In this document: positions 23,734 to 28,920 of the stretch, piece by piece | How the letters are laid out: every line of letters starts with the position of its first letter | How positions within the stretch are numbered: position 1 is the first letter of the stretch | From: Bacteroidota bacterium | GTDB lineage: Bacteria > Bacteroidota > Bacteroidia > JAADEI01 | NCBI GenBank assembly: GCA_026992635.1 | Contig: JALWYU010000101.1 | Coordinates: forward strand, 1-34,839 | DNA: 34,839 bases | Direction: 5' to 3' | Notes under the pieces: generated by a model | Told to the model about the DNA's origin: nothing | The model's database searches: none | Seen by the model: only the letters and a program-made list of their open reading frames with translations | Position numbers and translations under genes: made by a program

Positions 23734-24540
23734 TCAGAAGCCGGAAATGGTATCGGGGGAGGGCAGTGTATCTGAAGGGGGGAAGGAGTCTACGTAGAGG
23801 TCTATGGGCGTACCGGGTTCAACCCATCTGCCGGGTTCGGGAAATTGTTTGTGGACAAACCATTTGGTGGAGTCGTGGATAGTGAGTTCGTTCATGTGGT
23901 GGGCGTGGAGGATGAGTCCGGGTTCTAAGGAGTCGGACTGGATGGTGTGGATTGCCTGTGCGAGTGAGTAGCCTTTGTAGGACGGGATCCGCACAACGGC
24001 TCCGGTCCGGACACCTACGACGAGTGTGAGGGCGCTACCTGAAGGGATGGGGGTTTGGGGTGGGATTTTTTTGCCCTTCCAGAGGACGGCAAGGACGATG
24101 CTGTCGGAGTGGTAAGGCTGGAACTGGAGGTGGGCAATGGTGAATCCCTGGTGTTTAAGGCGGAGTCGTGCGATGCGCAGGGGCATGTCCAGGATTTCGG
24201 GCAGAGGGATGGAGGGCGGGTGCATACGTGAGATCCGCACGTAGATAGGTCTGCCCGGTTTGACGGAGTCTGGCGGTGCGGGGTTTTGTTCCAGGATGCG
24301 GGGTGGCTGGTGGATGAGGCTATCCACGTAGAGTGAGTCTATGATGACCAGTTTGAGGTGGAGTGCTTCAATTTGTTGTTGGGCTTGGTTGAGGGTGCGT
24401 CCGGTGAGTGGGGGCACGGGAATTGCTACCCCATAGCGTGTGTACCACTTTAGCAGGAAATGGATTGCCAGGAATAGGATAGTGCTGGCGAGGGCGATAA
24501 GTAAGAGATGGAGGAATAATGTTTTGAGTGTGCGTGTCAT
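23734..24540 (-). CDS. membrane-anchored protein with three PASTA domains
   Basis: A 268-residue protein. An N-terminal transmembrane helix (about 9-31) is followed by about three PASTA repeats on the outer face: about 38-105 (IPVPPLTGRTLNQAQQQIEAL), 108-178 (PLPEILDMPLRIARLRLKHQG) and 182-252 (IPSYKGYSLAQAIHTIQS). Each ends in the usual PGTPI/Y-V strand. There is no kinase or transpeptidase domain, which is common for Bacteroidota stand-alone PASTA proteins. These are thought to bind peptidoglycan or its fragments. Its ATG overlaps the M16 stop by one base, so the two are translationally linked. A short Asp/Ser/Pro tail follows. Confidence 0.9.
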   Translation of the reverse strand: MTRTLKTLFLHLLLIALASTILFLAIHFLLKWYTRYGVAIPVPPLTGRTLNQAQQQIEALHLKLVIIDSLYVDSLIHQPPRILEQNPAPPDSVKPGRPIYVRISRMHPPSIPLPEILDMPLRIARLRLKHQGFTIAHLQFQPYHSDSIVLAVLWKGKKIPPQTPIPSGSALTLVVGVRTGAVVRIPSYKGYSLAQAIHTIQSDSLEPGLILHAHHMNELTIHDSTKWFVHKQFPEPGRWVEPGTPIDLYVDSFPPSDTLPSPDTISGF

Positions 24541-27500
24541 CAGGGGATGAGTTGCTCGGGCTGGAATTCGTGGATTTCCCCGAAGGTTTGCTGGATGGCT
24601 TGCATAGGGAGGAGGTTGGGATTGCCGACGAGGGCGTAGGCGCAGGATTGGTTCGCAATGTATTGGTGGAATTGGGTTTGGAACTGTTCTAAGGTGAAGT
24701 GGGGCAGTTGTTCATAGAGGTAGTGGTGGGGGTCCTGGTTGATGTGCATGCGGATTTTCCAGTAGTAGACGTGCTCCAAGAGGTCCAGGTTGCGTAGGCG
24801 GTGTGTAGCGATTTCCTGCTGGAGCCCTTTGAGGGTGGTCTGGAAGGTGGTGGTTTCCAGTACGGGTTTCCTGAGAATTTGTTCTGCGACCTGGAGGACG
24901 TCCAGGACTTTGTCGTATTTGGCGGAGGCGAAGAAGAAGTGGAAGAGGGGCTGGGTAGAGTCGTGGGGGAAGATAAATCCGGAGGAAGTCGCGTAGGCGA
25001 GTCCACGCTTTTCGCGGATTTCTTTGAAGGTGATGGAACCCAGTCCCAAGCCATAGTATTCGCGGTAGATGCGTACGAATGGGTAGAGGGAGAGGGAGAA
25101 GGGTGCGGACTGACAGAGTCGGAGGACGAGTCCCTGGACCTGGTCAAAGGGTACGAAGTAGAAGCCGGGCTGGGTGGGTTGTGTCTGGAGTTTGTGCTGG
25201 TTGGGCAGGGGTTGTGGCGGGATGTTTTCATAGTAGGCTTTCAGCCAGCTGATTATAGTGTCTGGTGGTAGGGGTGCGGTGATGAGGATGTAGTGGTTCC
25301 AGTGGAGCAGGTTTCGGATGCCCGCCAAAGCCGTGTCGAGGGATACCTGGTTAAGGGCAGATGATGAGAGGCGCAGTGTATAGGGATTGTGTTTTCCGTA
25401 GCGGATATATGCGCTGAGCGCGAAGAGGAGTGCTCTGGGTGATTTACGCTGGTTTTCGCGTTGTTTGATGAGGTCTTTGATGAGGTTGTGGAAGGTTTCG
25501 GGTGAGGCGGAGGGCTCGGTAAGAAGGGAATAAAGGAGTTCTAAACCGGTTTGCATCTGGTCTTTGAGTCCGGTGAGTGTGATGGTTGCGCTTTGTGGGT
25601 GGATGTGTGCACTGAAGTCCAGGGCGTGTTGAAAGAGTGCTTCCCGGAATTGTCGGGAGGAGAGGTTGGCGGTGCCGGCGTGTTCCATCAGGTTGAACGC
25701 GACTTCTAAGGTGGGGTTCTGGACGTAGCCAAAGGGGAAGACCAGTTCAATTCGGAAGATTTCGTTGTCGGTGTTGGGCACGAACCATACGGGGATTTGT
25801 CGGGTGGGAGTATTGAGTGTGAGGTACTGGATGTCTATCTGGAAGTTGACGAAGTGGGGAGTAGGTGGTGGGACGTGCATTTGTTTCCACTGGTGGGCGA
25901 ATTGGGATTCGGCGTGGTTGGGGCTGTTGACGGGTGTGAAGGGTGGTTTGGGCAGGAGCACGCGGTCTTTGGGTTCGCCCTGTCGTTTGTAGACGACGAC
26001 GTGTCCGGGAAGGAGGTATTCGCGTGCGATGGCGACGACGTCTTCGTAGGTGACGTTCTGGAGGTCCTGGAGGATGTGGAGGAAGTCCTGCCAGGAGATG
26101 CCGTGTGCGACGGCTTCAAAGATGGTTTCCACACGCCCTTCGGCGGATTCCCACCGTTCCATGAGGTCTAAGCGGAGGTTCCGGATGGCGGCGGGGATCA
26201 GCCATTTGGGGAAGTTACCCTGGGCGAGTCGCTGAACGCTTTTCAGGACGTGCTGGTAGACTTCTTCCAGGGATTGGTTTTCGCGGGGGTAGGCCTGGAC
26301 CATCCAGAGCCCTCCTTCCACCCATTGCCAGTCGTAGGTTCGGTACTTGAGGACTTTTTGTTCGTGGATGAGGTCCATATCCAGGATTCCGGCAAATTCG
26401 TTGGAGAGGACGTACATTGCGACGAGCCAGGGTGCGATTTTGTCTTTCATGCGGTAGGTGGGCGTTCGCCAGGCGACCATCACGTATTCGGGCTGGGGAC
26501 TCCAGACTTCTCGGACGGGTGTTCCATAGAAGGGTTTGGCAAAGAGGGTTTCAGCGATTTCGGGAGGATTGCCTGTGGGGAGTTGTTCAAACCATTTGGC
26601 GAGGATCTGGATGGCGGAATCGGGGTTGATGTCGCCCGATAAGCAGATGGTCATGTTTTTTCCCACGTACCATTTGTGGAAGAAGTCCTGCATTGCGCGG
26701 ATGGAGGGGTATCGGATGTGTTGTGCGTAGCCGATGACGGGTCGGGCGTAGGGGTGTCCTTTGAAGAGTTCTTCGACGATGGCGTCCCAGACGCGGTAGA
26801 CGTCCCAGTCCTGGAAGCGCATATTGAATTCCTCAAAGACGGCTTCCAGTTCTAAGTTGAAGAGTCGGGGCACGACCATACGGAGTCGTTCGCTTTCTAA
26901 GCGCGCCCATCGTTCCAGTTCGTTGGCGGGGAATTCGCCGTGGTAGGCTGTCCAGTCGTAGATGGTGGTGGCGTTGAGTTTGTCGCCGCCCATTGCGCGG
27001 AAGAGCGCTTCGAATTCGCCGGGGATTGCGTACTGGCTTGCCATCTGGTTGATGGAGTCGATCTGGTGGTAGATTTGCTGTCGTTGCTGGTCGGATTGGG
27101 CGGTGCGCAGTTGTTCGTAGAGTTCTGCCATTTGTTCCAGGTAAGGTTGCTCGGCTTGCCAGTTTCGTGTACCGAGTCGGTCTGTACCTTTGAACATCAT
27201 GTGTTCCAGGTAGTGGGCGAGACCGGTGGCGTGGTCGGGTTCGTGTCGTGCGCCGGCGTGGATAATGACTGTGTAGAAGACGCGAGCGGAGGCGGGGTAG
27301 GGCGAGATGAGTACGCGGATTCCGTTGGCGAGCTGGTACTGGTGGACGTTCAGTGGGTCGTTGGGGAAGGTTCGTGCCTGATAGGTTTTTGCAGCTGGAG
27401 TTGTTGTTGTGGTGGCAGTCATGGTTGTTGTTCGTTTAGCGGTGCATGTCCATAGTGTGCAGATTGGGATGAGGCAGGCGAAGGAAAGGAAGATCAGGGG

Positions 27501-27542
27501 TAAGGGATGGATGTAGGGGTTGCCTTTGTTAAGGTGGAACAT
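24540..27542 (-). CDS. M16 (insulinase/pitrilysin) family peptidase, two-domain
   Basis: This 1000-residue protein is a double-length M16 metallopeptidase. An N-terminal hydrophobic segment (about 14-32) with cysteines nearby (in ICTLWTC) suggests export, perhaps as a lipoprotein, though the lipobox is poor. A Thr-rich linker follows. The zinc motif HxxEH is H110-E113-H114 in LAHYLEHMMFKG, so the first half should be catalytic. The second half (from about 560) is a non-catalytic M16_C-type pair that closes the chamber, with the conserved phrases GLGSITFKEIREKRGLAYATSS and YIANQSCAYALVGNPN. It would degrade peptides or protein fragments in the periplasm. The gene starts one base after dnaX ends and overlaps the PASTA gene start. 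Confidence 0.92.
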   Translation of the reverse strand: MFHLNKGNPYIHPLPLIFLSFACLIPICTLWTCTAKRTTTMTATTTTTPAAKTYQARTFPNDPLNVHQYQLANGIRVLISPYPASARVFYTVIIHAGARHEPDHATGLAHYLEHMMFKGTDRLGTRNWQAEQPYLEQMAELYEQLRTAQSDQQRQQIYHQIDSINQMASQYAIPGEFEALFRAMGGDKLNATTIYDWTAYHGEFPANELERWARLESERLRMVVPRLFNLELEAVFEEFNMRFQDWDVYRVWDAIVEELFKGHPYARPVIGYAQHIRYPSIRAMQDFFHKWYVGKNMTICLSGDINPDSAIQILAKWFEQLPTGNPPEIAETLFAKPFYGTPVREVWSPQPEYVMVAWRTPTYRMKDKIAPWLVAMYVLSNEFAGILDMDLIHEQKVLKYRTYDWQWVEGGLWMVQAYPRENQSLEEVYQHVLKSVQRLAQGNFPKWLIPAAIRNLRLDLMERWESAEGRVETIFEAVAHGISWQDFLHILQDLQNVTYEDVVAIAREYLLPGHVVVYKRQGEPKDRVLLPKPPFTPVNSPNHAESQFAHQWKQMHVPPPTPHFVNFQIDIQYLTLNTPTRQIPVWFVPNTDNEIFRIELVFPFGYVQNPTLEVAFNLMEHAGTANLSSRQFREALFQHALDFSAHIHPQSATITLTGLKDQMQTGLELLYSLLTEPSASPETFHNLIKDLIKQRENQRKSPRALLFALSAYIRYGKHNPYTLRLSSSALNQVSLDTALAGIRNLLHWNHYILITAPLPPDTIISWLKAYYENIPPQPLPNQHKLQTQPTQPGFYFVPFDQVQGLVLRLCQSAPFSLSLYPFVRIYREYYGLGLGSITFKEIREKRGLAYATSSGFIFPHDSTQPLFHFFFASAKYDKVLDVLQVAEQILRKPVLETTTFQTTLKGLQQEIATHRLRNLDLLEHVYYWKIRMHINQDPHHYLYEQLPHFTLEQFQTQFHQYIANQSCAYALVGNPNLLPMQAIQQTFGEIHEFQPEQLIP

Positions 27543-27543
27543 G

Positions 27544-28920
27544 TCAGTGATGGTTCCCGGTTACGCTTTGGAGCTGGAGGAGTTCGCGGAAGGTCTGGAA
27601 GGGGTCTTTTTGGGGTTTGTTGGCGGAGGTGGTTGTTGGTTTTTTTTGGGGGTTTGGTGGCGGTGTGGTGCGTTGAGGGGCTGGTTGGGTCGTTGTGGAG
27701 GTTTTTTTTGTGGTTCTGGTGGTTTTTGGTTTTTGGGAGGTTTTGGTTTGTGTGGGTGTGTTGTTGCTGGTGGTTTGGGGTTGGGAAGTGGTTTTCAGTG
27801 TGGTGGTGGGGATTGTTCGTGCCCGGTTGAGCCAGGGGAGGACGGTCATTTCTAAAAGAGCGATTTCCAGGATGGATTGTTTGTCTTCGGCGTATCGGAG
27901 CTGGCTTTCGTATTTGTGGAGGAGGGTGAGTGCGGAGAGGAGGAGTGCGGGTTCAATGGCTTGTGCGAAGCTGGCGTAGCGCGAAGCGGTTTCTGGCGGC
28001 AGGTCTTCTTTGAGGGAGTTGGGGTTGAGGTGGGCGTGCAGGAGTAGTCGGAGGTGTCGTCGTAGGCTTCGGAGGATTTCGGCGGGCTCGTAGCCTTGCA
28101 GGAAGAGGTTGCGGAGTGTGGTAAGGATTTCAGCGGTGTCGCTGAGGAAGATTTTCTGGCTGAGTGTGAAGAGCTGGTCGTCGTCCAAGAGGTGGAGGAT
28201 CTGGGCTACGGTGGTGTAGGTGATGGTCTGGTTGGTGGTGTAGGAGGCGAGTCGGTCAAAGAGCGTGAGTGCGTCGCGGAGGGATCCGTCGGATTGGCTG
28301 GCGATGACGTAGGCGGCGCGTTGTTCCAGCTGGATGTTTTCCTGTTGGGCGATGGAGAGGAGGTGCTGGACGATTTGGGGTATGGGTATTCGCCGGAAGT
28401 CGTAGATCTGGCATCGTGAGAGGACGGTGGGGAGTATGCGGTATTTTTCGGTGGTGGCGAGGACGAAGACGGCGTAGGGTGGGGGTTCTTCTAGGGTTTT
28501 GAGGAAGGCGTTGAAAGCGGCTTGTGAAAGCATGTGGACTTCGTCAATGATGTAGACTTTGAACTGGCGTGTAGGTGGGTATCGGACGTGCTCAATGAGG
28601 TTACGGATGTCGTCCACGCTGTTGTTGGAGGCGGCGTCCAGTTCGAAGACGCTGGTGGCTTTACCTGATAGGAATTCTTTGCATGCCTGGCACTGGTTGC
28701 AGGGTTCGCCTTCTGGGGTCAGGTTGAGGCAGTTGAGTGCTTTGGCGAGGAGTCGTGCGCAGGTGGTTTTGCCCACGCCGTGCGGTCCGCAGAACAGGAG
28801 GCTTTGTGGGATCTGGTTTCGTACGAGCAGGTTGCGCAGGGCGATGGTGATGTGGTCTTGTCCGACGACTTCGGCGAATCGTTGTGGTCGGTATCGGCGA
28901 GCGGTAGAGAAGATGGGCAT
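27544..28920 (-). CDS. dnaX: DNA polymerase III subunit gamma/tau
   Basis: The 458-residue clamp-loader ATPase has Walker A at G45-T52 (GPHGVGKT), the four-Cys zinc site near 64-82 (CNQCQACKEF), Walker B/DEVH in IIDEVHMLSQAAFNAFLKTLEEPP and the sensor/SRC motif LSRCQIYDFRRI. Domain III (about 240-365) follows. After about residue 370 the protein is a Thr/Pro/Gln/Lys linker and ends soon in DPFQTFRELLQLQS. The tau-specific C-terminal domain seems absent or reduced, so the encoded full-length product looks gamma-like. Within the linker are two runs of eight A on the coding strand (27640-27647 and 27702-27709), both coding Lys-Lys. The M16 gene begins one base after the stop. Confidence 0.95.
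   Translation of the reverse strand: MPIFSTARRYRPQRFAEVVGQDHITIALRNLLVRNQIPQSLLFCGPHGVGKTTCARLLAKALNCLNLTPEGEPCNQCQACKEFLSGKATSVFELDAASNNSVDDIRNLIEHVRYPPTRQFKVYIIDEVHMLSQAAFNAFLKTLEEPPPYAVFVLATTEKYRILPTVLSRCQIYDFRRIPIPQIVQHLLSIAQQENIQLEQRAAYVIASQSDGSLRDALTLFDRLASYTTNQTITYTTVAQILHLLDDDQLFTLSQKIFLSDTAEILTTLRNLFLQGYEPAEILRSLRRHLRLLLHAHLNPNSLKEDLPPETASRYASFAQAIEPALLLSALTLLHKYESQLRYAEDKQSILEIALLEMTVLPWLNRARTIPTTTLKTTSQPQTTSNNTPTQTKTSQKPKTTRTTKKTSTTTQPAPQRTTPPPNPQKKPTTTSANKPQKDPFQTFRELLQLQSVTGNHH
27640..27709 (-). other. two A8 tracts in dnaX, possible slippage sites
   Basis: On the coding strand there are AAAAAAAA runs at 27702-27709 (in ACA AAA AAA ACC) and 27640-27647 (in CAA AAA AAA CCA), 54 bases apart. 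Long A runs in dnaX of Thermus cause transcriptional slippage. Here a one-base gain gives an open frame ending at 27494-27496 inside the M16 gene. A one-base loss ends at 27561-27563. Neither yields a short gamma form, so the effect would be altered tails. Confidence 0.6.

Follow-up and report, generated by a model that had tools for sequence, protein, structure and literature searches.

The dnaX gene described here is probably a shortened gene that has no slippage switch and gives one main product, its two runs of eight A being incidental rather than programmed. The A run that follows domain III is gone from this genome, and so is the folded C-terminal domain of tau. It has long been asked why and how bacteria make two DnaX proteins, and a gene in which the A-run switch and the tau domain both seem to be lost offers a natural test of what the tau domain is for.

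The dnaX gene and its two A8 runs

We analysed a 34.8-kb stretch of DNA (the window), one contig of a Bacteroidota draft assembly of 2.13 Mb in 114 contigs that is 82.55% complete (G000). Its dnaX is a minus-strand ORF of 458 codons (27544-28920) with an ATG start and a TGA stop. The product scores 401.3 bits against TIGR02397 (curated cut-off 250), which assigns it to the DnaX gamma/tau core, and it carries Pfam matches to the DNA_pol3_delta2, lid and gamma3 domains; the best 80 named matches are all Bacteroidota by their record titles. The AlphaFold model, built on a 12-row alignment (mean pLDDT 76.5), predicts a folded core, a disordered linker and a terminal helix. The features are as follows:

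27841..28920, minus strand: domains I-III, well-folded core, codons 1-360 (Pfam, TIGR02397; AlphaFold pLDDT mostly 70-94 in 10-residue blocks)
27544..28920, minus strand: dnaX, clamp-loader ATPase subunit without the tau C-terminal domain (ORF call, TIGR02397, Pfam)
27607..27810, minus strand: T/P/K/Q low-complexity linker, codons 371-438, predicted to be disordered (pLDDT below 50 over residues 371-438)
27702..27709, minus strand: first A8 run, ACA AAA AAA ACC, codons 404-407, first A at codon position 3
27640..27647, minus strand: second A8 run, CAA AAA AAA, codons 425-427, first A at codon position 2
27571..27603, minus strand: predicted C-terminal helix, residues 440-450 (AlphaFold, pLDDT about 61)
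27494..27563, minus strand: stops of the shifted frames, +1 at 27563-27561 and -1 at 27496-27494
24540..27542, minus strand: M16 peptidase gene (Pfam), starting one base past dnaX

The initial annotation had pointed to two A8 runs 54 bases apart in the dnaX linker, and both are present (27709-27702 and 27647-27640); the window holds no other A8 or T8. It had also located the stops of the shifted frames correctly, but with the frame signs swapped relative to the usual convention: one A fewer leads into the +1 frame, which ends at 27563-27561, and one A more into the -1 frame, which ends at 27496-27494. These frames stay open for 46 and 69 codons past the first run and for 26 and 48 past the second, and their tails, ending at 27561 and 27494, are of low complexity. 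Slippage here would thus swap tails with hardly any change in length, just as the annotation had proposed, and both shifted frames miss the C-terminal helix from either run. From the linker to the M16 gene no frame shows tau coding sequence, so this is not a two-ORF dnaX. Nor is the unshifted product a plain gamma form, as had been thought: gamma-length products in the class mostly end near codon 360-386, and this one is about 70 residues longer, with a disordered linker and then the predicted helix. The suggestion that the paired runs permit compensating shifts found no support, as two rare opposite events would be needed; both shifted frames are open between the runs, yet nothing favours the idea.

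Ribosomal -1 frameshifting of the E. coli type would be another way to two products. The E. coli signal is A_AAA_AAG, and the window gene shares with it AAA-AAA lysines in the linker, including A_AAA_AAA-like stretches within the runs. However, there is no AAAAAAG heptamer, no AAG after the runs and no stem-loop; the surrounding RNA is G-poor and unstructured (MFE -0.5 kcal/mol), which makes such a signal unlikely, and the -1 frame runs on for 48-69 codons. We regard this mechanism as extremely improbable. It is also very unlikely that assembly or binning hid a true longer A run or tau sequence. The draft is fragmented and incomplete, as noted above, but dnaX lies inside the contig and runs straight into the M16 gene, which also directly follows dnaX among the ORFs of two relatives (G001 and G002), and the tau domain is encoded in no frame.

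The A-run switch in related dnaX genes

To place the gene among its relatives we searched 59 related genomes and read the dnaX of 56 (G013, G017 and G039 gave no usable dnaX), together with that of 80 named contigs. Four loci were too short for the counts (L102, L113, L193 and L199), leaving 54 and 78 genes, or 132 in all, from two sets that may share species. Just after domain III, in codons 341-420, 99 of the 132 have 9 or more A in a row (42/54 relatives and 57/78 named loci). The longest run was exactly 10 A in 36 relatives and 42 named loci; within these codons it was 8 A in none of the 132. Among the genes with a run and a long ORF, 71/71 (27 relatives, 44 named) have a stop in each shifted frame no more than 16 codons on, compared with 41% at random core positions. 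The remaining genes with a run have a short ORF (15 + 13 = 28), and in all of them a shifted frame leads into tau, staying open over 120 codons or more or as far as the contig reaches (L107, counted here, is cut by its own contig end). The frame bearing tau is -1 in 27 of these and +1 in one, L206 (G045), where the run lies at codon 372; it is the sole two-ORF A10 dnaX that we read with tau in the +1 frame. By the argument made in the available text of PMC3711429, the use of both shift directions suggests slippage in transcription.

From these sequence patterns, dnaX in this class appears to switch between gamma and tau by slippage on an A run, and the data indicate that Bacteroidia dnaX keeps an A10 switch in two layouts, each the mirror of the other. 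As far as the available parts of the sources describe them, Thermus dnaX combines an A9 and a full tau with stops close by in both frames (PMC1088944; PMC5009743), and the two-ORF dnaX genes with A10 reach tau through a -1 shift (Antonov et al., 2013, PMC3711429); to that extent our survey matches and extends both the A9 case and the A10 genes. On a quick core tree the presence of the run changed at least 15 times. Two loci stand apart: L058 has its tau domain in a shifted frame past codon 382 with no A run nearby, and L214, the DnaX of a relative whose genome measures 0.5 Mb (G028), ends at domain III and is apparently gamma only.

The slippage idea of the initial annotation holds for the group, in which an A-run switch is apparent, but the A8 runs of the window differ from it in length, position and nearby stops. 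They lie at codons 404 and 425 instead of just after domain III and fall short of 9 A, and their shifted frames stop after 26-69 codons, as opposed to at most 16 in the 71 class genes. The window gene resembles dnaX of Thermus thermophilus, which relies on transcriptional slippage at an A9, in being a single-ORF gene whose linker holds an A run and whose C-terminus a slipped mRNA would alter; it differs in having A8 twice, no nearby stops and no tau domain. With the two-ORF A10 genes it shares an A run and a short zero frame, but its shifted frames open no tau.

Genomes of the same family show what this lineage may have had. The dnaX of G001 (L006) is 51% identical over window residues 4-420 and also has the M16 neighbour, but it is 543 codons long, with a tau domain and an A9 at codon 372 from which both shifted frames stop by codon 380. 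At the site of this A9, G002 has GAA AAG AAA AAC and no run, and G003, whose dnaX runs off its contig, has no A run. The initial annotation had looked to conservation of the A runs in close relatives; at the positions of the window runs they are absent in 3/3 same-family genomes, which is one of the two results that it had named as speaking against slippage. A profile search for the tau C-terminal domain gave no match at E<=1 in G000 (82.55% complete), so the gene lacks the domain of a tau form; the same profile (A2) matched G001, G002 and G004, and gave no match in G003 with its truncated dnaX locus.

We suggest that the lineage inherited a Bacteroidia-type dnaX with A9-A10 after domain III, the pattern seen across the class, on which slippage of RNA polymerase would yield gamma and tau. 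What remains would be the clamp-loader core, a linker predicted to be disordered and a short predicted C-terminal helix, maybe the old polymerase-binding tail. The A8 runs most likely stem from Lys-Lys pairs, written with AAA only, in an A/C-biased linker: all 21 lysines of dnaX (21/21) are AAA, and adjacent minus-strand genes share the same bias. As a shift of frame past codon 404 leaves the core intact, the gene may tolerate them. The runs probably slip at a low level, and a minority of the proteins would then lack the final helix, though not as part of a programmed switch; a slip in either direction would remove the helix and leave the clamp-loader core, a gamma-like outcome. Across all genes of the window there is a strong strand-specific third-position bias, with minus-strand genes rich in C/A and plus-strand genes rich in G/T.

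A8 runs in the genome and the C-terminal tail

By base composition the pair of runs is ordinary: at least two A8 or T8 runs arose in 43/100 dinucleotide shuffles of the window, so their count alone is not unusual. Under codon-preserving nulls for dnaX, 0.27 A8 are expected with the codon usage of the window (P of two or more 0.016), 0.57 with strand-matched usage (P 0.07) and 0.79 with the gene's own usage (P 0.116). We also counted A runs in 418 kb, the window plus 20 further stretches of the same genome (L114-L133), over 285 ORFs taken from crude longest-ORF calls. In these ORFs sense A6 occurs as expected (174 observed versus 168-177) and A7 is below expectation (39 versus 52-56). A8 is strongly depleted, with 3 observed versus about 18 expected, two of the three in dnaX, and A9 is absent (0 versus 6-8). 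Outside dnaX, the other 284 sampled ORFs hold 1 sense A8 versus 17.6 expected, and T8 is depleted too, less strongly (5 versus 12.2). If dnaX were depleted like the other ORFs, two A8 would have a P of about 0.0005-0.004, uncorrected for the gene having been chosen for its A runs. The avoidance of sense A8 and longer runs alongside normal A6 in this genome marks 8 A as the length from which runs become slippage-prone.

Over the whole genome we found 70 distinct runs of A8 or longer and classified 69, namely 12 sense, 27 antisense and 30 intergenic; of the 12 sense runs two lie in dnaX, and no other ORF has more than one. That sense A8 is avoided genome-wide and yet occurs twice in dnaX is one point in favour of a function. 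Baranov (2005), in the text available, infers that some bacteria slip productively on 8 A, which likewise counts against reading the runs as incidental. Weighing the other way, sense A8 or A9 also lies within recognisable genes (FtsW, GreA and, with A9, adenylosuccinate lyase), so such runs are not intolerable. The A9 in the adenylosuccinate lyase gene (L157:1320-1328, on contig C49 of G000) is the longest sense A run that we found in an ORF of the genome.

The end of the protein bears on the same question. Tau proteins of the class end in a motif with the profile consensus EKNPNLQELKQRFNLDID, to which the window tail, PQKDPFQTFRELLQLQ, is similar when a one-residue skip is allowed. The profile was built from 93 of 108 collected tails, leaving out the window and incomplete or domain-less rows; L009, L058, L063, L091 and L094, whose ends were atypical or whose frame was odd, were left out as well, and this sharpened the profile towards a match. 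A shuffle test gave a P of 0.0064 with the gap and 0.061 without it; the tail ranked 3 of 285 C-termini of the genome, and 27 of 5554 internal 40-mers scored as well. A plain alignment test of the same tail disagreed (P 0.185, rank 24 of 285). The predicted C-terminal helix is possibly a remnant of the polymerase-binding tail of tau. In E. coli the C-terminal residues of tau bind alpha, according to the available portion of PMC11470591, which makes a tau reduced to the helix conceivable.

A switch could on these grounds have been relocated. The zero frame would then be a minimal tau made up of the core, the linker and a helix that binds the polymerase, and a slip at either A8 would exchange the helix for a neutral tail, giving gamma, with two A8 in series offsetting the lower slipperiness of each compared with an A10. 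This would fit the loss of the helix in both shifted frames from either run, the predicted isolated helix at 440-450 after a disordered linker, the better of the motif tests, the avoidance of A8 elsewhere in the genome and the alpha-binding end of E. coli tau as the accessible text of PMC11470591 has it. Yet no class gene has A8 as its longest run, the shifted frames lack nearby stops, the ungapped motif test (P 0.06) and the alignment test are not favourable, and the runs are not conserved in the family. We consider a relocated switch rather unlikely. The fuller proposal, a minimal tau that has lost the folded domain but kept the helix and in which the gamma/tau choice has moved from one A10 to two A8, seems to us unlikely.

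The converse proposal is a gamma-only DnaX, whose tail past domain III would have no function and whose polymerase would be tethered otherwise or not at all. It agrees with the lack of a tau domain in G000, with the DnaX of G028 that stops at domain III and with the non-significant alignment test of the tail. Against it, a helix is predicted exactly at the protein end, and DnaE of this genome keeps its C-terminal region, which is uninformative as a discriminator since DnaE has other roles. We find a gamma-only protein doubtful, and a shortened gene with incidental A8 runs remains the reading that we favour.

An in-frame TAG in a Bacteroidales lineage

In three named Bacteroidales loci (L039, L047 and L059) dnaX has no A run; a TAG near codon 366 ends the zero frame, and a full tau domain follows beyond it in frame. 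Among the 99 genomes nearest to that of L047, 54 have exactly one in-frame TAG in the dnaX match. Of the 32 loci that we read (L225-L256), 30 have the TAG at codons 364-387; the two left out are L248, which lacks the core motif, and L228, which has TAA instead. In 30/30 the TAG is followed by AT(T/A) GCN AG(A/G), with Ile never ATC and Arg never CGN, and the Ala codon is GCA in 28/30. No A run longer than 5 lies near the TAG in these 30 loci. In 4/30 the tau ORF itself ends with TAG, indicating that TAG still terminates in this lineage.

A conserved TAG at the gamma/tau boundary followed by a complete tau looks like a candidate programmed readthrough that would replace the A10 switch. Re-initiation at the AUU or AUA past the TAG is an admissible alternative to readthrough. 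A search of literature titles found none on readthrough at a dnaX TAG, and the dnaX section of a 2016 review (PMC5009743), in its available text, lists ribosomal frameshifting, transcriptional slippage and proteolysis without mentioning readthrough; the conserved in-frame TAG of this sister lineage would thus be a route outside those named there. This lead is stronger than the finding on the window dnaX. About 12 bases downstream of the TAG there is a three-pair hairpin, with compensatory changes in two of the pairs among 12 sequences.
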